Assembly: GCF_000379965.1 (NCBI RefSeq)
Contig: NZ_KB904327.1
Location: forward strand, 1 to 64,000
DNA length: 64,000 bases
Direction of reading: 5' to 3'
Source of the DNA: Hoylesella nanceiensis DSM 19126 = JCM 15639
GTDB taxonomy: Bacteria; Bacteroidota; Bacteroidia; Bacteroidales; Bacteroidaceae
The notes under the pieces: generated by a model
The model's input: only the letters and a program-made list of their open reading frames with translations
The model's database searches: none
What the model was told of the DNA's origin: nothing
Program-made: the position numbers and the translations under genes
In this document: positions 93 through 30,782 of the stretch, piece by piece
Position numbering within the stretch: the first letter of the stretch is position 1
Layout of the letters: each line of letters begins with the position of its first letter

Positions 93-176
93 AGACACAG
101 ATTATTTTCATCCGTTGTGATTTATTTAATCATACATTTTGCTTGTAGATATGTTATTGATATTATAAAGGTATAT

Positions 177-286
<110 letters not shown>

Positions 287-17486: not shown

Positions 17487-18083
17487 ATGATGAAGAGATA
17501 TATAATAAGCGCATCGTTGCTTTTGTGCTCTTGTATGTGCACTGTTTCGGCTCAAACTTCAACAAGTAATAAGACAGAGTCGCTTGGAAGTAAGATATCA
17601 AGAATATTAAATAGAGCCAGAAAGTCTGCAAATAAAGCTGGAAAGCAAGTGGGTTACACCTTAGATGCAGATGGACATTTGAATAAAGAAAATGACCTTA
17701 TAAAGGTTAGTGGCCTATATTACATGCCTTTGTACACAGTAAACCTATATCAAGGTAAAGAAGCTGCAGAGTTTAGAGAGACTGTTCGAAAGAAATTTAT
17801 GGAGAAATATCCCCAAACTAAACTGCAAACTGTGGTGATTCCTCAAACAGATTGGTTGCATGAACCTGTGGAAAAGGGTGATGTGATTATTGGATATTTG
17901 CAAACAATGTATTGTTATGCTATTGCACAAGATGGTGAAGAGGGATATATTAATGCAAAGTTCACCTTTCAACGATATAGAGAAGTGGGTGGAGAATATC
18001 AACCTTTGCAAGAAAAATGGCCTAAATGGGAACGCACAGACGTGCTTTCTGATAAGGTATATAATAAGTTGTTGACAAAATAA
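17487..18083 (+). CDS. Exported protein of unknown function
   Basis: A 198-residue protein with a signal peptide (about 1-22, IISASLLLCSCMCTVSAQ). Cleavage after SAQ is likely; the cysteines could also make a lipobox (LLLCSC). Residues 30-60 are basic and helical (SKISRILNRARKSANKAGKQVGYT). The rest is a mixed alpha/beta domain with TKLQTVVIPQTDWLHEPVEKGDVIIGYLQTMYCYAIAQDG. I do not recognise a family. An alternative ATG lies one codon downstream. It is a single gene, 330 bases before the large cluster at 18416. Confidence 0.7.
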   Translation: MMKRYIISASLLLCSCMCTVSAQTSTSNKTESLGSKISRILNRARKSANKAGKQVGYTLDADGHLNKENDLIKVSGLYYMPLYTVNLYQGKEAAEFRETVRKKFMEKYPQTKLQTVVIPQTDWLHEPVEKGDVIIGYLQTMYCYAIAQDGEEGYINAKFTFQRYREVGGEYQPLQEKWPKWERTDVLSDKVYNKLLTK

Positions 18084-18375: not shown

Positions 18376-18383
18376 TACCTTTG
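18376..18383 (+). promoter_or_regulatory. -7 element of the tubulin/ATPase operon
   Basis: TACCTTTG is a perfect -7 element. The -33 position is not TTTG. It lies inside the longest possible reading frame of the next gene, which shows that the upstream start at 18365 is not used and that translation begins at 18416, leaving a leader of about 26 bases. Nothing else is recognised in 18084-18375. Confidence 0.65.
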
Positions 18384-18415: not shown

Positions 18416-19915
18416 ATGAAAATTCATTGTTTTAAAATACAGTATTTATTCTTTGCTTTAGCTCTATTTACAGCGTTTTCATGTGGAAATAGCAAAGAAA
18501 AAGAACTCGACCGACTTGTTGTTAGCTTAGCTTCAGAAGATAAAGAGATTGACTCTAAAGACTGGCAAGAAATTGTTTCATTTATTAATTCAGACAAAAG
18601 AGCATTTAAAGACTTTTGTAATTCGAACGGAGATGTTGATGAGGCGAAGCTTAAAAGCTATATTGTTGACTTAATGAATGGCCGTCGTCCCTCTGTGGAA
18701 GTAAGCTTTGTGGGTGTTGGAAAAGAGCAAAATGTGAAGGTAAACTTCTACTTAGAACGCTCAGGAAGTATGATTCCATACGATGATGTGAATGGAAATG
18801 GTAACTTTAAAGCAGCTATTGTGCAGTTATTAAACAACCTTCCAGGCGACGTAAACAATAATAAAATATACGTAGTTAATAGCACTATCAACGAATATCC
18901 AGAGGGATTTTCTAAGTTTTTGACTGATACCAATATCTTTGAAGCCACTAAGAACATTGGAGATCCAAGTTATACCAACTTTAGTGAGATCTTTAAAACA
19001 TTGTTGAACAACACAAAAAACAATGAATTAAGTATTCTTGTGTCGGATATGATTTACTCAACTAAAGAGATGTCTGTAGTGAATCCCGAGAAAATCTTTA
19101 ATGAAATAAAAGGTATGACCCATGCCGTTTTCAATAATATCGTTAAAACAAAATCGATGCTTATATTGAAGATGCAAGGCTCTTACAATGGTTCTTACTA
19201 CACATATAACTCTCCAAATAAAGGAATAGCATATCAAGGCGACCGTCCATACTATATTGTTATAGTAGGAGATAACGTTCTTCTTGCAAGAATTTCAAAG
19301 GATAAGAATTATAGTTCGTTTAGAGATTTTGCTAACTTACCAGGTTTTCAAGAACAATATCTGTTTGAAACATCAGGCATTTATCGTCCTTACTACTCAT
19401 TTTTGTTAAGTAATAGCTTAATAAAAGGCCGTTTCCGTCCTGAACATAATCAAACAAATAGCATTACAAACATTGAAGATTTAGAGGTAGATAAAGAGAG
19501 TGGGGATCTTGATTTGGTGTTGGCTGTAGATCTAAATAATATGTTTATCGATAAAAACTATCTTGTTAATCCTCGCAATTATGAGGTTATTGCAGACGAT
19601 GCAATACAGATTAAGGCCATAAAACCAATAACTGACAGTGATAGAATGCCTGCTGAAAAGAAATACTTATCTACTGCAACGCATCTATTTGTATTGTCTG
19701 CAAAGGAAATATCACACGAACAAGAAGTAAAAATACGACTTATTAATAACTTCCCACAATGGGTTTATGCTTCATCTACAGACGATGACACTCAACCAAA
19801 CAGCACAACTACATTTGCGTTGAAATACTTGTTGCAGGGAATATACGACTCTTATAAAAAGAATTCGGCTGGAGTCCCTTATTACTTCGAATTAAATATG
19901 AACTTAAGAAAATAA
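18416..19915 (+). CDS. vWA-like lipoprotein, first gene of the two-nucleotidase cluster
   Basis: A 499-residue lipoprotein. The signal ends in LFTAFSCGNS, with the lipidated Cys at residue 23. From residue 105 on it looks like a von Willebrand A domain. The first metal-site motif appears as LERSGSM (Glu114-Ser116-Ser118 where most family members have DxSxS). A threonine motif is seen as GDPSYTNFSEIFKTLL, and the Asp motif as SILVSDMIYS. A second half (about 250-499) has beta segments such as YYIVIVGDNVLLARI. vWA domains bind partner proteins through a metal. The Glu replacement may alter that. It is 12 bases from the next gene. The start at 18416 was chosen because the promoter lies within the upstream extension. 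No close named family is recognised. Confidence 0.8.
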   Translation: MKIHCFKIQYLFFALALFTAFSCGNSKEKELDRLVVSLASEDKEIDSKDWQEIVSFINSDKRAFKDFCNSNGDVDEAKLKSYIVDLMNGRRPSVEVSFVGVGKEQNVKVNFYLERSGSMIPYDDVNGNGNFKAAIVQLLNNLPGDVNNNKIYVVNSTINEYPEGFSKFLTDTNIFEATKNIGDPSYTNFSEIFKTLLNNTKNNELSILVSDMIYSTKEMSVVNPEKIFNEIKGMTHAVFNNIVKTKSMLILKMQGSYNGSYYTYNSPNKGIAYQGDRPYYIVIVGDNVLLARISKDKNYSSFRDFANLPGFQEQYLFETSGIYRPYYSFLLSNSLIKGRFRPEHNQTNSITNIEDLEVDKESGDLDLVLAVDLNNMFIDKNYLVNPRNYEVIADDAIQIKAIKPITDSDRMPAEKKYLSTATHLFVLSAKEISHEQEVKIRLINNFPQWVYASSTDDDTQPNSTTTFALKYLLQGIYDSYKKNSAGVPYYFELNMNLRK

Positions 19916-19927
19916 CAATATAATTAA

Positions 19928-20371
19928 ATGAAGAATTTAATACTGCTAGTGTTTGGTATTGTAATAACACTTATTTTGGTGCTTTTCTCATCACATATCT
20001 ATGAGGTTTTGTACTATGAACGTGCTTTCTCTGATGCAATGTATAATGGAAACGTCTATTTTATGATTGCTTTATTTAGCTCAATTATACTTTGGGTGAT
20101 GGCAGTTGTTTACTATTACATTATCAATTCGGTTCGTTTCAGTCGTTGGTATCATTGGTTAGTGATGTTGTTGGGTGCTTCTTGCTTAGCAACAACAGTG
20201 AACTACTATTATGCAAAGAGCATCTTTACAGCTGATAAGCTAGATTTCTCACTTCAGTTATTTAACTTCTCTGTTGTTGAAACCATATTAAATATGGTGC
20301 TATTTATTGTTGTTTCATTCTCAATTCGTTGGTGGTCGTCTAATTGTAGACATACTCCTATTCCAGAATAA
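19928..20371 (+). CDS. Four-helix membrane protein of the cluster
   Basis: A 147-residue protein with four hydrophobic segments: about 3-24, 45-68, 78-95 and 115-133. Short loops and a basic patch (RFSRWYH) lie between helices 2 and 3. No catalytic or transport motif is seen. It lies 12 bases after the lipoprotein gene and 4 bases before the tubulin-like gene. This tight spacing suggests co-translation and a role as membrane anchor or channel part for the complex (inference). Confidence 0.75.
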   Translation: MKNLILLVFGIVITLILVLFSSHIYEVLYYERAFSDAMYNGNVYFMIALFSSIILWVMAVVYYYIINSVRFSRWYHWLVMLLGASCLATTVNYYYAKSIFTADKLDFSLQLFNFSVVETILNMVLFIVVSFSIRWWSSNCRHTPIPE

Positions 20372-20375
20372 TATT

Positions 20376-21920
20376 ATGCGTTTGTTTCTATTTCTAGTTG
20401 GTGGGACTGGATCAAGAGTGTTACGTCCCCTTATAATGCAGTTTGCTGCAGGTGTTAGACCACTTGATAACAATGGTAAAGAAATACCTTTAGAGGTTGT
20501 ACCCATTATTATCGACCCTCATAAAGCAAATGAAGACCTTAAAAGAACAGATAGTTTATTGCGTTCTTATAAGTCTATCAGAAGATCGATATATGGTGAA
20601 AACGTAGAAGTTGGAAATGGATTCTTTTCAACAAAGATCTCAACTTTGGCAGATATCATACCCAATGGTTCTACACTTAGTGACACCTTCTTGCTCAATT
20701 TGGGAGCAGTTGAATCTACAAAGTTCAAAGATTTTATTGCTTATAACACGTTGGATACTGCTAATCAGGCCTTATGTTCAATGATGTTCTCCGACTATCA
20801 GCTCGAAACAAAAATGGATATAGGTTTCGTTGGTAGTCCTAATATCGGTAGTGTAGCACTTAATCAGCTTAAAGATAGCGAAGAATTCAGACAATTTGCT
20901 AACGTATTCCAAAGCAATGATCGTATCTTTGTGGTGAGTTCTATATTCGGTGGAACAGGTGCAGCAGGCTATCCTGTGATCGTAAAGAATATAAGAAACG
21001 CTGCAAATAACAGCAACTTGAGTAATAGAGGCAGTTTAAGAGATGCCAAAATAGGTGCATTAACGGTGCTACCTTACTTCAATATACAACAAGATGAGAA
21101 TAGTCCTATCTCACGAGCAGACTTCATTTCGAAAACAAAGTCGGCATTATTCTATTATCACGACAATCTAACAGGATTGAAACAAAATGGAGTTGACTTG
21201 CCACTTTCAAAGGTAAACGCTTGTTATTACTTAGGAGATGAAGTGCCAAGTAATCCTTATTACAACGATCCTGGAGACAACGGACAACGCAATGACGCTC
21301 ATATTGTCGAGTTTGTTGGTGCCCTTTCGGTGCTAGACTTCTTGCAAATAGCTGACGAAGACCTATTAACTATGGAAGGAAACGCCCGCAATCCTATTTA
21401 TAAAGAATATGGTTTGTCGTTTGATAAGCAAACAATTTCATTGAAAGATCTTGGCTTATCGAGTCGTGCATTGGTGAATAAGCAGCTAATTAAATTCCAT
21501 TTGGCTTACATGTACTTAACACATCAATTGAAAGAGGATATCGGTCGTGGTTATACTCAAGATGAACCAGCTATTGGAAAGAGCTTTTTATCAACCACAT
21601 TCTATACTACTTTAATGGCAGATTTCTTCGTTTCATATCGTCAATGGCTAAAAGAATTGACAGGAAACCAAAGAAGTTTCGTTCCATTTAACCTCGCAAC
21701 AGATAAGTTAAGCGATGTAGTTACAGACATTTCACCTAAAACAGGATTGTTTAAGTCGGCAATTAACTATAAAAATGTATTGTCTTCATTAAACAAAGAG
21801 AGCTTACAATCAGTAAAGAACGGTTCTTTAAAAGAGCAAACACCAAGCTATAAGCTATTCACTCTCTTAAATATTGCATTAGATAAGTTGGTGGATGAGA
21901 AATACGAAGCAATCGTTTAA
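20376..21920 (+). CDS. Tubulin/FtsZ-superfamily GTPase-like protein
   Basis: A 514-residue protein. The start at 20376 (ATG, MRLFLFLVGGTGSRVL) is preferred because the upstream frame overlaps the previous gene and adds no motif. Two glycine-rich loops fit the tubulin fold: VGGTGSRVL at residues 8-16 (T1 position) and SSIFGGTGAAGYP with G192-G195 (T4 position, GGGTGTG in FtsZ). Further segments such as VVPIIIDPHKANEDL fit strand-loop pairs of the Rossmann half. This agrees with the Tubulin_2-like group rather than FtsZ or cell-division proteins. It is expected to bind GTP; polymerisation is possible but unproven. The partner is probably the ATPase encoded 30 bases downstream. Confidence 0.8.
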   Translation: MRLFLFLVGGTGSRVLRPLIMQFAAGVRPLDNNGKEIPLEVVPIIIDPHKANEDLKRTDSLLRSYKSIRRSIYGENVEVGNGFFSTKISTLADIIPNGSTLSDTFLLNLGAVESTKFKDFIAYNTLDTANQALCSMMFSDYQLETKMDIGFVGSPNIGSVALNQLKDSEEFRQFANVFQSNDRIFVVSSIFGGTGAAGYPVIVKNIRNAANNSNLSNRGSLRDAKIGALTVLPYFNIQQDENSPISRADFISKTKSALFYYHDNLTGLKQNGVDLPLSKVNACYYLGDEVPSNPYYNDPGDNGQRNDAHIVEFVGALSVLDFLQIADEDLLTMEGNARNPIYKEYGLSFDKQTISLKDLGLSSRALVNKQLIKFHLAYMYLTHQLKEDIGRGYTQDEPAIGKSFLSTTFYTTLMADFFVSYRQWLKELTGNQRSFVPFNLATDKLSDVVTDISPKTGLFKSAINYKNVLSSLNKESLQSVKNGSLKEQTPSYKLFTLLNIALDKLVDEKYEAIV

Positions 21921-21950
21921 TATTCAAGAATCAGTTAAAAAGGAAGCAAA

Positions 21951-24900
21951 GTGAGCAAAATATTATCATATAATAAAAAGACAACAGGAGAAGGTTGGAT
22001 ATCTTTACACAACCAATATGGGGCAGATGAGATCAATATGATTATCGACCCTAATGCTGGTTTGAGTCAAAAACCACGCACAGCGATACCTTCTCCATTT
22101 GCACAAATGGACCTTGTTAAGAATGCTTTCAATCGTTTAGCGATGTCAACAACATTAGAAGGAGAAGTGATGGATAAGCTTCTTGTTTCTAATGCCTTAG
22201 ATATTGCTCAGCTATTCTTTAACTTTGGTGAGATGAAAAACCAACTACGAGTGGTTGAATGGAACAAAGATAAGGCATTGTCAGACTTAAAAAACAACGT
22301 ACAACACGCCCTTTTAGGTGAAACAATATCGATGTTTTTAGAGCAAGATAAAGAGGCTTTTAACTTTGATAAGTTTGATAAACTCTACTTTTTGTTATAT
22401 GAAAACAAGGTGATTGGATCTACTTCGCCCATTACTTTGTTCATGGCTACACCCAATGCGCAGCCTGGAAAGTATCCAGTAACAGTGGAACAGAACATCA
22501 ATTTATTCGATTCTGTTCGTCACTTGCATTGTAGAGATACCCGATTTATAAAGTATCTTTATGCCATGTTCAACGCTTATCCACAGTTAAAGCAATATTG
22601 TGGGGAAGTGAATGCTTATCTTGTGAGAGTATTTGAATTGCTCTCTGCAGAAATTCGCAATGAGATTTTAACTGAAATAGGCAATCCTACATCTTTAGAC
22701 TTAGAGAATATCGAGAAAGCTAAGCTCTTCTTGCAAACCAACTATTTGGCTATTGATGGCGGAGTGCAAATCTTTGGTATTCCATTCTATGGTCTTCGAC
22801 AAGAAGATGTGTTAGATGGTATTGCTTCAAGTGACTTTGTTATTAACACAAAGAAGACACAAAATGAGCCTTTACCACTTGTTTTACAAAACAACTTGTC
22901 ATCTTATCAAAATGCACCTTATAAGTATATCACAGGCAATTGGGACGATAAACAACAGATTTCGTACACAGATTATGCGGTAGAACCATCAAAACGCACT
23001 CTACCAGGTACGTCTCATGTTTATCCTTGGCTAACAGATGACGACTTCTTCCAGCCTTCTCTTATTAAACTTGATTATACATTAAATAGAGATTGCTATT
23101 TCGATGGTAACCTATCTCTATCTACTAAGGATGTAGATGATAACGACTTCTTGCTTCCTATAAAGCCTTTGTTCTTCAAATATTTTGATGTAGAAGACCT
23201 AAAGGGTAAGATTGGCGGATTACCTAAATTTGAAATGCGTCATGAAAGAATAGGAGGTAACGAGGCTTTAACTGCAATTTTGCGTATTCCAGTGAAGAAA
23301 GAAGGAGGCTTTATCACATTAAAGCGTACCTATCTCAAAGCAATTGATAACAATTATGCTTACGACCGCAAGAATGATAAAGGCTATTTCGTGAATATTG
23401 CCTTTACTTTAAACCTCTTCCCATTCATTAAAACGGAAGGGATTAACCATTATAATGTTCAGTTAATTGATAGAGCTTTAGGCGATTTCGATAGCCATGG
23501 CATAGGCTTATCATTCTATAAAGAGACAGAAGCTGAGGCTTTAGATACTCAAAAGGTAAATGTTCGAGAAAGAAGTTATAAAAAAGAGAAGCGTGTAGGC
23601 TCTTCTTATTATAAAGTAGATGATAACTTCGATTACATACTTGTCAACTTATCAAGTAGCAACTCGTCTACACCTATCGAAGGATTAATATGCCCTAATT
23701 GGACAAGTTATATCCCTGGACACGATAGTTACACCTTTGCAGTAGACTTTGGAACAACCAACACTCATGTAGAAAGCATGCAGGCAGGTGCCTTGCCACA
23801 ACCTCTTATGTTGAATAGTGTGGCAGTTGAGAAGATGGTTGCAACCCTATACAATGGCTCAAGTATTTTATATGATGTTATTTTAAAGCAAGAATTCTTG
23901 CCAAAATGCATCGGAGAAGACTATTGTTTCCCACAAAGAACAGTGTTAAGTGAAAGCGAACGTCTTGATATTGTTAGTATAGACCATCTTGTTCCACTAG
24001 GAGATACCAATATACCGTTTATATATGAGAAAGAATCTGTGGGCTATGGCAACAACATAGTCACTGATTTAAAATGGTCGGTAGAGCTTTCTTCGAGCAA
24101 GAGAGTAAAGGCATTCCTAACCGAACTCGCTTTATTAATGCGTACAAAGGTGCTCTTAGAGCATGGCGATTTAAGCAAGATATCTCTTGTTTGGTTCTAT
24201 CCTCTCTCAATGAAGATAGGAAATGTACGTAAATTAGGAGAGATGTGGGAGTCTATTTTTGCTGAAGTCTTTGGCGTACAGGCAAATAATAGCAACCTAA
24301 TACATATGCCCGAATCGGTTGCTCCTTATTATTTCTATAAGAACTTAGGAACCTTTAGAGGCGCAGCTTCAACCGTTGCAAGTATTGATATCGGTGGAGG
24401 TTCGAGCGATATTGCCATCTTTAAAGGCACAGAGGCACAGCCATTACTTCTTTCTTCATTTAGATTTGCGGCCAATGCGCTATTTGGAGACGGTTTTTCT
24501 GATATCCCAAGAGGTAACAGAAACCCAATGGTTACAACCTATGTCAACTACTTTAAGCGTTTATTCGACGCCGATGACGATAAGTATGGAGAACTAAATG
24601 GCATATTAGACGATATTACAGAGAAGCAAAAGAGCGACGAGATCAACGCCTTCCTCTTCTCAATTATCAACAATCAGGCAGTTCTTGGAAACGACGTGTT
24701 CTCGTATAATAAACGACTTAACGAAGATGCGCATCGCAAAATCATCTTCCTTTATTTCTATTCTGCGCTTATTTATTATGTAGCTAATGTAATGAAGCAT
24801 CACAATATCGATAAACCTCGTAACGTGATGTTCAGCGGAACAGGTAGTAAAGTGTTGGATATCGTTGGTAGTCAACGTGATTTAGATATGATGACACAGG

Positions 24901-25427
24901 CTATCTTCGAACGAGTTTATAACGAAACATATACTGATAGCACCTTCTCTGTGGTGATGGAGCGTCGTGAGCCAAAGCAAATAACATGTCGTGGTGCATT
25001 GATGCAGATGAAAGATCCTACAGGAACTCAGCTCATTAATGAGCTAAACAATATCATGGACGGTTTCGATAACACCATAAAAGTGAACTATTCATTGTTA
25101 GATAAAGAGCAATTGACCTATGGTGATATGGACGACACAGCCATTCAGCAAGGTGTAATCACTAAAGTAAAAGAGTTTAACAGCTTCTTTATCGAGCTTT
25201 GCGATGCTCTTCGAGTTGTTGATAGATTCTTGGTTGATAACCAATCTTATCAAAAGTTCAAAGCAATAGTTAACAATGATCTCGATCATCATTTAGTAAC
25301 TGGCTGGAACTTCATTAATAAGAATGCCCAAGATAAGAATAAAGAAGACATAATTGAAGATACAATGTTCTTCTATCCAATTATTGGAACCATTCGAGAT
25401 AACTTGATAGAAGGATTAACCAACTAA
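21951..25427 (+). CDS. Giant actin/Hsp70-fold ATPase-like protein
   Basis: An 1158-residue protein with a GTG start at 21951 preceded by AGGA-type ribosome binding sequence (AAAGGAAGCAAA). Residues 1 to about 590 form a large domain without a family I recognise, rich in beta segments. From about 592 an actin/Hsp70 (ASKHA) nucleotide-binding fold follows. Phosphate-1 is AVDFGTTNTH with Asp599, phosphate-2 is SIDIGGGSSDIAIF with Asp813, and the adenosine motif is MFSGTGSKVLDIV with Gly963. All three are intact, so ATP binding is likely. SrfB-type proteins are a possible distant relative by size and fold, but I cannot test this. It is 30 bases after the tubulin-like gene and 14 bases before the next. 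Confidence 0.78.
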   Translation: MSKILSYNKKTTGEGWISLHNQYGADEINMIIDPNAGLSQKPRTAIPSPFAQMDLVKNAFNRLAMSTTLEGEVMDKLLVSNALDIAQLFFNFGEMKNQLRVVEWNKDKALSDLKNNVQHALLGETISMFLEQDKEAFNFDKFDKLYFLLYENKVIGSTSPITLFMATPNAQPGKYPVTVEQNINLFDSVRHLHCRDTRFIKYLYAMFNAYPQLKQYCGEVNAYLVRVFELLSAEIRNEILTEIGNPTSLDLENIEKAKLFLQTNYLAIDGGVQIFGIPFYGLRQEDVLDGIASSDFVINTKKTQNEPLPLVLQNNLSSYQNAPYKYITGNWDDKQQISYTDYAVEPSKRTLPGTSHVYPWLTDDDFFQPSLIKLDYTLNRDCYFDGNLSLSTKDVDDNDFLLPIKPLFFKYFDVEDLKGKIGGLPKFEMRHERIGGNEALTAILRIPVKKEGGFITLKRTYLKAIDNNYAYDRKNDKGYFVNIAFTLNLFPFIKTEGINHYNVQLIDRALGDFDSHGIGLSFYKETEAEALDTQKVNVRERSYKKEKRVGSSYYKVDDNFDYILVNLSSSNSSTPIEGLICPNWTSYIPGHDSYTFAVDFGTTNTHVESMQAGALPQPLMLNSVAVEKMVATLYNGSSILYDVILKQEFLPKCIGEDYCFPQRTVLSESERLDIVSIDHLVPLGDTNIPFIYEKESVGYGNNIVTDLKWSVELSSSKRVKAFLTELALLMRTKVLLEHGDLSKISLVWFYPLSMKIGNVRKLGEMWESIFAEVFGVQANNSNLIHMPESVAPYYFYKNLGTFRGAASTVASIDIGGGSSDIAIFKGTEAQPLLLSSFRFAANALFGDGFSDIPRGNRNPMVTTYVNYFKRLFDADDDKYGELNGILDDITEKQKSDEINAFLFSIINNQAVLGNDVFSYNKRLNEDAHRKIIFLYFYSALIYYVANVMKHHNIDKPRNVMFSGTGSKVLDIVGSQRDLDMMTQAIFERVYNETYTDSTFSVVMERREPKQITCRGALMQMKDPTGTQLINELNNIMDGFDNTIKVNYSLLDKEQLTYGDMDDTAIQQGVITKVKEFNSFFIELCDALRVVDRFLVDNQSYQKFKAIVNNDLDHHLVTGWNFINKNAQDKNKEDIIEDTMFFYPIIGTIRDNLIEGLTN

Positions 25428-25441
25428 GAATTAACGAGATA

Positions 25442-26002
25442 ATGTTTTCAAAAATATTCCGTTCGGAACAAGAAAATAAAGACGAAGAGAATAATTCATT
25501 GGGTTTTACAACCGAAGAATTAGTAAAGAGAATAGAGGCTTTAGAAACAAAAGTAGCGTCTTTAGAGGCTTTATTAGCTGATTATGGCGAATTAAAAAGC
25601 ACAATAGCTCAATTTCAAAAGACTCAGGGAAAGCCTGAAATCTCTGCTTCAAATAAGGAACATACGATAGCAAAAGCTCCTCAAAAAGTAAGCAAGTTAT
25701 ACCTCGATGCACCGCTTCAAGATGGTTCTTTCAGTACTTTCTCAAGCGAAGAGCATGTGGGGAAGAGCTTGTATGTATTAGAAACACAGGATTCTAAAAC
25801 AGGAACTTTCCGTGTATTAGAATCGAATGACGCTCTTGCAACATTGCTAATCAGCACTTCTCAGTTTGTAAAACCAGTGTGTAAGCTGATAGATTCGAAG
25901 GTAAGAATGCCTCAACGAATAGTAACTGTTGAAGAAGGACAAGCCATTTTTGTTGATGGCGTGTGGAAAACAACTCAAAAAGCAGTTGTAAGATTAGAGT
26001 AG
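25442..26002 (+). CDS. Coiled-coil protein of the cluster
   Basis: A 186-residue soluble protein with no signal peptide. Residues about 22-60 form a strong coiled coil (ELVKRIEALETKVASLEALLADY). After a linker, residues 85-186 form a beta-rich domain (KLYLDAPLQDGSF, YVLETQDSKTGTFRVLES, GQAIFVDGVWKTTQKAVVRLE). It is probably an oligomerising adaptor for the neighbouring nucleotidases (inference). It begins 14 bases after the ATPase gene and ends 27 bases before the zinc-ribbon gene. No named family is recognised. Confidence 0.72.
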   Translation: MFSKIFRSEQENKDEENNSLGFTTEELVKRIEALETKVASLEALLADYGELKSTIAQFQKTQGKPEISASNKEHTIAKAPQKVSKLYLDAPLQDGSFSTFSSEEHVGKSLYVLETQDSKTGTFRVLESNDALATLLISTSQFVKPVCKLIDSKVRMPQRIVTVEEGQAIFVDGVWKTTQKAVVRLE

Positions 26003-26029
26003 TAGCTCGATAAAAGATAGATGTGTTAG

Positions 26030-26863
26030 ATGGAAATAGAAGTAAAATGTCCTAAATGTAGATTCCGATTTGATACAGAAGTACATCGTGGAGCAACAGA
26101 AATAACAACAGCTTGTCCTCGATGCGGATTTCCTTTTAGTCATGTTCTCGATGAGGATGTGATACAAGAAGCACTTGCTCAGCCCGAAGAGGTAAAGGAA
26201 CCCGTTTTGAATGATGTATCCACTGAAAATCAAGAATATACAAAAGAGGAAGTAAAAGCAGTGCAAAAGCATGATGAAAGCAATGCTATTGCACCTCAAA
26301 AGCAATCAGTTTACACTCCAAAAGCACCTCAATTACGACCCAATAGAATTGAACGTTTACCCAAGAACTATGTCACTCGTCCTTTGAATGATAATGAAGG
26401 CAAAGGAAAAGTGATTGGTGTTGTGGCTTTTGTAATCGTTTTAGTGCTTGGTTGTTTATATCTTTTTAAAGGCTTTTTATTTGGAGAAAATAACAATCAG
26501 TTTACAGAAGCATCGAAATATGTAAACGATTTGCAATACGATTCACTCAAAGTTGTGAAAGACAACGCATTTTCTTCGGCTGCCGACACAGTGGGATTTA
26601 ATGGCATAAAGCCCCAAAAGCCACCCGCTTGGATTCAAGGAATATGGCGAGCTACAACCGATTATGGAGTGATTACCTTAAAAATCAAAGGCAACACCAT
26701 CATCGAAAGCATCGAAGATCTAAGTTCTGAAGGTACATTCTTTTATAATGATGGTGTTTTGTATTGCACTTTCCCCGAGAAAACAAAGATGCGTTATTAT
26801 CTCGATACAGATAATTTAGTTATTCAACTCGATAAACTCAATGCATTCACAAAGAAGAGATAG
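26030..26863 (+). CDS. Zinc-ribbon protein with one membrane helix
   Basis: A 277-residue protein. The N-terminal zinc ribbon has two CPxC pairs, VKCPKCRFRF and TTACPRCGFPF (residues 6-34), of the MJ0042/zinc-ribbon type. A charged linker (40-125) follows, then one membrane segment (about 127-150, VIGVVAFVIVLVLGCLYLF) and a C-terminal beta domain outside the cytoplasm (about 195-277, GIWRATTDYGVITLKIKGN). The topology predicts the zinc ribbon in the cytoplasm and the C-terminal domain in the periplasm, bridging the cytoplasmic nucleotidases and the envelope lipoprotein (inference). It is the last gene of the unusual set. Confidence 0.78.
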   Translation: MEIEVKCPKCRFRFDTEVHRGATEITTACPRCGFPFSHVLDEDVIQEALAQPEEVKEPVLNDVSTENQEYTKEEVKAVQKHDESNAIAPQKQSVYTPKAPQLRPNRIERLPKNYVTRPLNDNEGKGKVIGVVAFVIVLVLGCLYLFKGFLFGENNNQFTEASKYVNDLQYDSLKVVKDNAFSSAADTVGFNGIKPQKPPAWIQGIWRATTDYGVITLKIKGNTIIESIEDLSSEGTFFYNDGVLYCTFPEKTKMRYYLDTDNLVIQLDKLNAFTKKR

Positions 26864-29591: not shown

Positions 29592-30051
29592 ATTACTCTT
29601 TGTTTGTTTAGGAAATATATGTAGAAGTCCAGCTGCAGAAGGTGTTATGAAAGCCTTTGTGCAACAAAGTGGACGTGAGAATGAGTTTGAAATAGACTCA
29701 GCAGGAATAGGAGGGTGGCACATAGGGCAGCTTCCTGATGAGCGAATGCGGAAACGTGGATCGCTAAGAGGATATAACTTTAATTCTCATGCACGTCAGT
29801 TTCAAATAGAAGACTTTGATAAATTTGATAAAATCCTTATTATGGATCATGAGAATTACAAAGCTTTGAAGACTAAAGCACCTAATGATGAGGCTTTAAG
29901 TAAGGTGGAAATGTTGGCTGATTATATGACTTCTCACCCTAATCAAGATATTATTCCAGATCCATATTATGGCGGAATATCTGACTTTGATTATGCTCTT
30001 GATTTAATTGAGGATGCATGTGAGTCGCTATTAAAAAGCTATGATAAATAA
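29578..30051 (+). CDS. Low-molecular-weight protein tyrosine phosphatase
   Basis: A 157-residue enzyme with the active-site P-loop VCLGNICRSPAAEG (CX5R, Cys at residue 10) near the N-terminus and the general-acid Asp in DPYYGGISDFDY near residue 125. The length and order fit the family (about 150 residues). It overlaps rmuC by 14 bases and ends the nine-gene run. The target is unknown; some relatives act on capsule-synthesis tyrosine kinases or arginine phosphate. Confidence 0.92.
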   Translation: MEKNKLLFVCLGNICRSPAAEGVMKAFVQQSGRENEFEIDSAGIGGWHIGQLPDERMRKRGSLRGYNFNSHARQFQIEDFDKFDKILIMDHENYKALKTKAPNDEALSKVEMLADYMTSHPNQDIIPDPYYGGISDFDYALDLIEDACESLLKSYDK

Positions 30052-30131
30052 ATAGGACAAAAGGTAGAAGAGAATAGGCTGTTATAATAGTGATAGAACC
30101 ATCTAACTAGTCTGAAAATGTTTGATATAGA

Positions 30132-30176
30132 ATGAGATGTTGTATGCTTAATAGGTGCAATGTCTCATTTTTTTGT
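30132..30176 (+). terminator. Terminator after the long operon
   Basis: ATGAGATGTTG and GCAATGTCTCAT form an imperfect stem followed by TTTTTTTGTTTT. This would end the run of genes from 18416 to 30051. Between 30180 and 30365 I see no other feature. Confidence 0.7.
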
Positions 30177-30365
30177 TTTAAAAGAGAGGGGGTAGTTGCA
30201 AGGCTTCATTCCTTTTGTAGAATAAATAGAGTAGATTTTAAGACTTTACTTTCAACCTTATTTGATTAAAAAACTACAAAATAAGTCTCTAATGGAGTGG
30301 TATTCAGATGCTTTTATTTATATTTGTTCCAGACAATACTATAACCATTAAGTACTAAAAGTATA

Positions 30366-30782
30366 ATGAAAAACTTTGATTGCATTACACCTAATAAAGA
30401 ACATCTATTGATCTGTTTCTTTTTATGTCTGGCATTGGGCTTATATGCCGATGAAAAGATTGATAGTATCAAAGCGAAAGAAGCACCAGTTGTGTCGGAT
30501 ACTATTTTAAGAAGTATTCAATATCCCACTAATGCTCTTATCCTTCCAGGGGTAGTAGTGTATGGTAAGTATCCAAAGATGAAGATAAAGCCTTTTAAAA
30601 ATAAAATGGAACAAGAGCTTGCGCTATCTCCAAGTAGTGGTTTTAACCCTTTGGCGTTTATCTATTGGATGTTGAAACTGATTCCACAAAAGCATAAAAA
30701 GATGGAAACTGCGAAAGAAAAGAATCAAAGAATATTGTCAGAATGGGATAGGTATATTGCTCCTGCAGAGAAAAAGGATTGA
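30366..30782 (+). CDS. Small exported protein of unknown function
   Basis: A 138-residue protein with a hydrophobic segment at about 14-29 (LLICFFLCLALGLYADE) that fits a signal peptide. The rest is basic (LPGVVVYGKYPKMKIKPFKNKMEQE, then LKLIPQKHKKMETAKEKNQRIL). The phrase ILPGVVVYGK resembles segments next to membrane-targeted domains in Bacteroidales small exported proteins. No family is recognised. It has no neighbours in its operon. Confidence 0.6.
   Translation: MKNFDCITPNKEHLLICFFLCLALGLYADEKIDSIKAKEAPVVSDTILRSIQYPTNALILPGVVVYGKYPKMKIKPFKNKMEQELALSPSSGFNPLAFIYWMLKLIPQKHKKMETAKEKNQRILSEWDRYIAPAEKKD

Follow-up and report, generated by a model that had tools for sequence, protein, structure and literature searches.

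A conserved gene cassette of Hoylesella nanceiensis pairs a tubulin-superfamily protein with an ASKHA ATPase-like protein in a putative envelope-spanning machine

The stretch of DNA analyzed here, called the window, comprises positions 1 to 64,000 (64,000 nucleotides) of contig NZ_KB904327.1 from Hoylesella nanceiensis DSM 19126 = JCM 15639. It contains a cassette of six plus-strand open reading frames (ORFs), termed A to F, spanning 18416-26863. The intergenic gaps in the ORF list are 12, 4, 30, 14, and 27 bases, and the list matches a preliminary description of this DNA, made from its letters alone, in coordinates, strand, and the tight spacing of the six genes (4-30 bases). The genes are:

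18416..19915, plus strand: A, predicted lipoprotein of 499 amino acids with a vWA/MIDAS-like motif (ExSGS, T187, D211)
19928..20371, plus strand: B, membrane protein of 147 amino acids with 3-4 hydrophobic helices by hydropathy
20376..21920, plus strand: C, tubulin-superfamily GTPase-like protein of 514 amino acids with GGTGSR and FGGTGAAG loops
21951..25427, plus strand: D, protein of 1158 amino acids with a GTG start, its C-terminal half resembling ASKHA (actin/Hsp70-type) ATPases
25442..26002, plus strand: E, protein of 186 amino acids with a coiled coil and a conserved C-terminal domain
26030..26863, plus strand: F, protein of 277 amino acids with a zinc ribbon, linker, one transmembrane helix, and variable C-terminal domain

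The cassette is real and conserved. A nearly identical copy with the same gene order occurs in Prevotella sp. oral taxon 299 F0039, where C is 98.6% identical. We surveyed 124 loci, designated by L numbers (the same C protein occurs in four pairs: L012 and L025, L013 and L077, L015 and L065, L059 and L063). D directly follows C in 115 of the 120 loci with room; the five exceptions are L086 and L100, in which D stands behind a small ORF, the broken locus L120, and L165 and L171, in which no D was seen. Upstream of C, where 113 loci have room, A occurs in 105 and B in 104. Where 9 kb of room is available (73 loci), E is found within that distance in 68 and F in 57. This neighborhood survey had been set beforehand as a refutation test, and the set was found to co-occur in order across genera. 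Because of this recurrent order, together with low ratios of nonsynonymous to synonymous substitution (dN/dS) against the single F0039 pair, the cassette is more than a chance assembly. The ratios are 0.027 for C, 0.035 for D, 0.08 for A, 0.15 for B, 0.30 for E, and 0.20 for F, which by this one pair is fast-evolving; three flanking genes of the same pair give 0.04-0.09. A is probably under-counted in far relatives such as L127 and L128, because the A-position protein of the former (L127:10596-11984) has no Pfam match and that of the latter (L128:10057-11607) is missed by the A profile.

Judging from its loops and Pfam profile matches, C belongs to the tubulin superfamily, as had been proposed. 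Both loops are conserved in relatives, and our loop patterns fit 44 and 46 of 55 family members, of which 23 individually match Pfam Tubulin (PF00091) and 22 match Tubulin_2 at 1e-3. The window copy matches Tubulin_2 at 8e-5 and Tubulin at 6e-4, both under the curated cut-off. Its score against Tubulin_2 (PF13809), which we take to correspond to FtsZl1, is 22.4 bits, below the cut-off of 27 and hence below the score expected of an FtsZl1-family member. Other comparisons gave fainter signals. A profile of the 55 C proteins reaches FtsZ and tubulin structures with 0.009 as its best value, in the T4-loop region; the best NCBIfam match is ftsZ, at 0.026; and HHalign of C with the genome's own FtsZ is weak (0.058, probability under 1). 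In an AlphaFold model of C (predicted local distance difference test [pLDDT] 82.3, predicted template modelling score [pTM] 0.86), a strand at 2-8 precedes GGTG (9-12), and another at 183-189 precedes FGGTG (191-195).

The C-terminal half of D appears to be an ASKHA ATPase-like domain, on the evidence of ordered motifs and matches to MreB and Hsp70 profiles. All three motifs reported in the preliminary description (DFGTTNTH, DIGGGSSD, and SGTGSK) are present in the window copy and conserved in relatives; among 51 members, the phosphate-1 pattern is found in 44, the phosphate-2 pattern in 48, and the adenosine pattern in 39. With the D profile, MreB is matched over the phosphate-2 region (8.5e-7) and Hsp70-family chains over the phosphate-1 region (5e-4 and worse). 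HHalign aligns the phosphate-2 region with the genome's DnaK (E 4e-6, probability 87) and MreB (E 6e-6, probability 85); the match to its FtsA-like protein is weak (0.034). In the AlphaFold model of D (pLDDT 85.0, pTM 0.72), strands 594-600/604-611, 809-814/819-824, and 958-962 sit at the three motifs. No fold was assigned to the N-terminal ~590 residues, and the Pfam scan of the window proteins returned nothing for B or D.

Sequence features of the remaining proteins would allow a link to the envelope. The supposed vWA-like lipoprotein A has a lipoprotein-type start, with Cys23 conserved in 96% of 106 aligned A proteins and a stricter lipobox pattern fitting 83 of the 106. An MIDAS-like ExSGS is present in 97 of the 106, T187 in 89%, and D211 is invariant. 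Because no Pfam vWA match was obtained at E 1, the label "vWA-like" rests on these motifs. B had been called a four-helix protein; the window copy scans as having three hydrophobic segments, but four helices are plausible because hydropathy scans give four segments in 58 of 94 B proteins and three in 32. E is coiled-coil-like, as described, and has a weak match to a PADLOC coiled-coil model (0.004); its window copy lacks a hydrophobic segment, and 44 of 94 E proteins have one or two. In F, the expected CxxC pairs and single hydrophobic segment were found, and the zinc-ribbon end (residues 4-83) matches PADLOC PDC-M14A at 8.2e-7. Filing the cassette as a PADLOC system was rejected, given that F and, weakly, E were the only matches. 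E and F vary in length among loci, as does the outer domain of F, and the C-terminal domain of F is presumably periplasmic. Together, the six proteins are well supported by their sequence features as the parts list of a two-NTPase, envelope-spanning machine.

A finding new to this analysis comes from divergent relatives, in which sequence similarity points to a ZorA/ZorB-like stator pair encoded after the core. A ZorB-like protein is encoded in 15 loci and a ZorA-like protein in 16, each on the same strand as C and no more than 9 kb downstream of it; the sixteenth is L127, which has an OmpA-domain protein of its own upstream. Because L102 and L103 are nearly identical in C, D, and the ZorA- and ZorB-like proteins, 14 stator loci are clearly distinct. 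In an aligned set of 15 ZorB-like proteins, which includes a distant hit from L126 and leaves out L103, PADLOC ZorB1 matches 14 members at 1e-3 or better. The membrane motif SYxDxMTxLF, with its Asp, is kept in 12 of the 15; two others have an ORF missing that region, and one is a distant hit. The matching membrane Asp is described as crucial in the relevant part of a Zorya study (PMC11890865). The ZorA-like proteins are MotA-type with a long tail and match several PADLOC ZorA families, the commonest of which is matched by 6 of the 15 members. A few members have further matches to other long coiled-coil proteins.

The stator is absent from all 80 window-type loci (L021-L100), 64 of which extend 6 kb or more beyond C. 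In a quickly built tree of 54 C proteins, loci with ZorAB surround the window clade. Scoring stator presence or absence on this tree (present in 14 rows, absent in 35, and left unscored in 5) gives 6 changes versus 12.4 in shuffles, and none of 500 shuffles is as low; the tree has long branches at L127, L019, L020, L169, and L166. One reading of this pattern is that the stator was lost or replaced in the window clade, and another is that it was gained repeatedly.

Also new here is an apparent aspartyl protease gene found repeatedly, both in window-type and in ZorAB loci. It occurs in 14 loci (13 distinct) and by eye encodes a lipoprotein-like start. Window-type examples are L015/L065, L066, L067, L068, L075, L078, and L085; ZorAB examples are L017, L120, L157, and L166; and L118 and L158 are further loci. 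Among four proteases scanned with Pfam gag-asp_proteas/Asp_protease_2, those of L017, L157, and L166 pass the cut-off and the truncated L120 protein fails; the remainder were assigned by our own profile. L120 (G449:C38) is itself degenerate, with C in two pieces (one TAA) and D not found, and it retains the ZorA/ZorB-like and aspartyl-protease-like genes. Other accessory genes, some of them adjoining ZorAB loci, encode Endonuclease_NS (after the cassette in L017 and L102, before it in L166), SNase (L163, and L119 on the opposite strand), and Trypsin_2 (L159, L163, and L019).

The cassette is patchily distributed. D is present in 10 of 60 related genomes and in 9 of 36 within the genus, and C is present in 13 of 395 samples from the phylum and 23 of 393 from the order, the cassette's own genome included throughout. 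Eighteen of the 60 related genomes fall short of 90% completeness with at most 5% contamination; among the 42 high-quality genomes, 9 have the cassette. A scan of genome contigs confirmed at least 565 relatives of C, and by record titles many of the best 80 come from rumen, gut, and oral Bacteroidales.

Neither this distribution nor the identity of D follows the LepA marker. Genomes (G numbers) with similar LepA identity to the window's genome differ widely in D identity (LepA/D percentages: G008, 90/30; G019, 89/32; G028, 89/53; G029, 89/62; G002, 88/62; G009, 87/31; G035, 87/31; G012, 84/61), and D is missing from G001 (79% complete) and G004 (99% complete), both at LepA 90%. Such discordance and patchiness fit horizontal movement, loss, and old co-existing lineages. 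Flanks are shared by 77 of 110 locus pairs with C identity of 90-99% versus 41 of 541 pairs at 60-69%; several shared flanks look by eye like housekeeping genes, and others are of unknown type. A can differ far more than its neighbors. L102 and L103, two metagenome contigs from a viral collection, agree at 99-100% identity in C, D, and the ZorA- and ZorB-like proteins but at only 65% in A, which looks like an exchange or diversification of the outer sensor. The pair L121 and L122 shows 89% identity in C and D and 71% in A. A swapped or fast-changing lipoprotein is what would be expected of an exposed sensor.

The gene set resembles several known systems in part. The literature on Zorya anti-phage systems and stators (relevant parts of PMC11890865 and PMC12505986) provides a counterpart for relatives that encode the ZorA-like MotA-type long-tail protein and the ZorB-like MotB/OmpA protein with its membrane Asp. 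However, the window copy lacks ZorAB, and in it a tubulin/ASKHA pair makes up the cytoplasmic part, accompanied by a vWA-like lipoprotein. A PADLOC scan found no ZorA/ZorB stator genes in the window cluster, although they are present in 15 divergent relatives, and detected none of the effectors ZorC/D, ZorE, or ZorF/G among the six proteins at E 1. Because neither stator nor Zorya effectors were found by these scans, the window cassette, as judged from sequence, is not Zorya. The stator-bearing relatives could well function in the manner of Zorya.

Kaur et al. 2020 (PMC7159879), in the sections relevant here, describe conflict systems centered on DO-GTPase/GAP1 (GAP1-N2), among whose themes are tubulin, vWA, and HSP70, as well as a NucA-trypsin system. 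The cassette shares with these the presence of tubulin-family proteins, vWA proteins, and Hsp70-type ATPases near a membrane, but in the same sections tubulin and HSP70 are separate themes and the tubulin theme belongs to Firmicutes and Actinobacteria. At E 1 or better, Pfam showed no DO-GTPase match for any of the six window proteins, and no Pfam match labelled GAP1 was present among the window proteins, although no search with a GAP1 alignment was made. Among the neighboring genes scanned, those of L019 include one match: a MinD/ParA-like protein with a sub-cut-off DO-GTPase1 match is encoded a few genes behind D (L019:10487-12199, plus strand); it possibly ties the cassette to GTPase-centric conflict systems.

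Another partial counterpart is FtsZl1, which the pertinent passages of Makarova and Koonin 2010 (PMC2875224) place in a proposed vWA/GTPase/OmpA membrane-remodelling system. Here, too, a divergent tubulin-superfamily protein lies beside a vWA-like protein, and relatives have an OmpA-domain protein. However, FtsZl1 is described there as having a long coiled coil and helical C-terminus, whereas C has 514 amino acids and falls under the Tubulin_2 cut-off; moreover, the constant partner in the cassette is an ASKHA protein of 1150 amino acids, and the same passages mention none for FtsZl1. The neighboring actin-fold and tubulin-fold proteins also recall FtsA and FtsZ, but the genome has a separate FtsZ with an adjoining FtsA-like protein (contig C6), C and D are highly divergent, and D has over twice the length. 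Full-text searches of open-licence literature listed no description of this gene set, which does not show its absence from print, and among the papers listed by one of these searches none had tubulin and ZorB together.

Expression signals claimed previously were not confirmed. For a single promoter before the first gene, the candidate site lacks a -33 partner by the pattern used and is among 13 such sites on the plus strand within 12.5 kb.

18376..18383, plus strand: TAnnTTTG site, a possible but weak Bacteroides-type -7 element

We take TAnnTTTG to be the Bacteroides -7 element. Likewise, no terminator after 30051 was found in the stretch scanned (30051-30400), and terminator-like sites are as numerous as expected from shuffling (6 observed, 6.5 expected).

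Directly upstream of A, 17487-18083 encodes a secreted-looking protein of 198 amino acids with 89% identity in F0039; it was excluded from the cassette, having no homolog in the other surveyed loci. A MatE-RmuC-phosphatase group was rejected as part of the operon because G016 has MatE-RmuC without the cassette and the MatE family is near only 12 of 81 window-type loci. The cassette-bearing replicon of Prevotella oral taxon 299 (NC_022111.1, 1.77 Mb) is entered in PLSDB as a plasmid with one annotated feature. The most divergent C-D pairs adjoin TerD genes (Pfam TerD 1e-70) or genes for a PP2C phosphatase and a protein kinase:

L128:2000-2563, minus strand; L170:8274-9050, plus strand; L170:10525-11541, minus strand: TerD or PP2C/kinase genes beside the most divergent C-D pairs

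TerD neighbors presumably mark tellurite-resistance-type stress systems, with a possible link to these pairs.

The preliminary description suggested a remodelling, secretion, or defence-like machine. Protein placement allows the proposed link between the NTPase pair and the lipoprotein, and the balance among the three roles is somewhat towards defence, because relatives have a ZorA/ZorB-like stator and recurrent protease and nuclease genes. We tentatively favor, at somewhat less than even confidence, an immune-like role (biological conflict) for the set, as a two-nucleotide machine that spans the envelope and guards it. C would polymerize or switch with GTP, and D might anchor or time C as FtsA does FtsZ, while B, E, and F would keep the pair at the inner membrane. 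A, in the outer membrane or periplasm, and the variable outer domain of F could sense envelope damage or entry. In relatives, the ZorA/ZorB-like stator would join this linkage and lipoprotein-like proteases or nucleases could be periplasmic effectors; in the window type, which lacks the stator, coupling would probably be by E/F. Consistent with an immune-like role are the conserved A-B-C-D order, the stator, the proteases and nucleases, a diversifying A, a patchy spread discordant with LepA, and L101, a copy on a viral contig adjoining tail-protein (phage-tail-like) and DNA-methyltransferase genes.

Several observations weigh against this interpretation. The window cluster has no recognizable nuclease, protease, or toxin, the PADLOC scan of the window proteins returned nothing for A-D, and accessory nucleases occur in four loci only (L017, L102, L163, and L166) plus, on the opposite strand, L119. 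"ZorB-like" means MotB/OmpA-type and nearest to ZorB among PADLOC models, because no flagellar MotB control was included. A ZorB-like profile search of the window's genome (the ZorA profile was not searched) found no full ZorB-like protein, only three partial matches, at 118-213 and 116-207 (both in the OmpA-type end of the profile) and at 75-175 of 217; ZorAB encoded elsewhere in that genome was rejected on these partial matches only. Diversification of A is not general, because the window and F0039 proteins are 95.8% identical and thus not hypervariable. Many Prevotella copies lie amid recurring housekeeping-like genes with no obvious defence island, although no controlled island test was made. 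Finally, strong purifying selection on C and D and the at least 565 relatives also fit a beneficial envelope function.

One rival is envelope remodelling or maintenance, as proposed for FtsZl1, in which the pair would organize envelope proteins to serve shape, outer-membrane upkeep, or vesicle formation, and the stator, where present, would supply force as Tol-Pal does. The low dN/dS of C and D, the housekeeping-like flanks in many Prevotella, the OmpA-type partner in relatives, and the FtsZl1 precedent with vWA, GTPase, and OmpA partners in the pertinent passages of PMC2875224 all agree with such a role, and we regard it as a serious possibility. Nevertheless, the cassette was not found in 50 of 60 relatives, nor C in 382 of 395 and 370 of 393 wider samples, so it does not serve a core envelope function; LepA discordance, the diversified A, and recurrent protease and nuclease genes also fit poorly. 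The immune-like role is only narrowly preferred to remodelling. Secretion or surface export, with the ATPase/GTPase pair driving export of, or assembly with, A and accessory lipoproteins, could account for lipoprotein-type proteins in one cassette, an energy-using cytoplasmic pair, and the variable outer domain of F, but seems improbable when Pfam and NCBIfam reveal no channel, secretin, or known secretion component in the six proteins.

Tubulin and actin folds both serve in plasmid and phage segregation, and L101 lies beside phage-like genes. A mobile-element cytoskeletal or segregation module (TubZ/PhuZ- or ParM-like) turned chromosomal is nonetheless very hard to credit: C has no match among 50,697 phage records at E 0.01, its plasmid matches are weak (five cyanobacterial, at 22.8-24.8% identity, besides the 1.77-Mb Prevotella replicon), and lipoprotein and membrane partners do not fit. 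A phage or plasmid origin was rejected on the same phage and plasmid searches and on a total of five viral contigs.

Returning to the immune-like role, a bolder version, which we consider unlikely as it stands, is an undescribed class of envelope immune machine. An obligate tubulin-GTPase/actin-ATPase pair would be mounted on a Zorya-like ion-driven stator or, in the motor-less window clade, on a zinc-ribbon/coiled-coil adaptor, with a diversifying lipoprotein as sensor and swappable periplasmic proteases or nucleases as effectors. If true, an FtsA-FtsZ-like pair would here have been put to immune use.

The cassette is unstudied, although its tubulin gene C has at least 565 relatives in genome contigs. 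If the proposed machine exists, the two cytoskeletal nucleotide switches of division, the tubulin and actin folds, would have come together a second time, forming a membrane machine that has a stator type in common with Zorya. This offers a testable prediction for the role of divergent bacterial tubulins of the C type.

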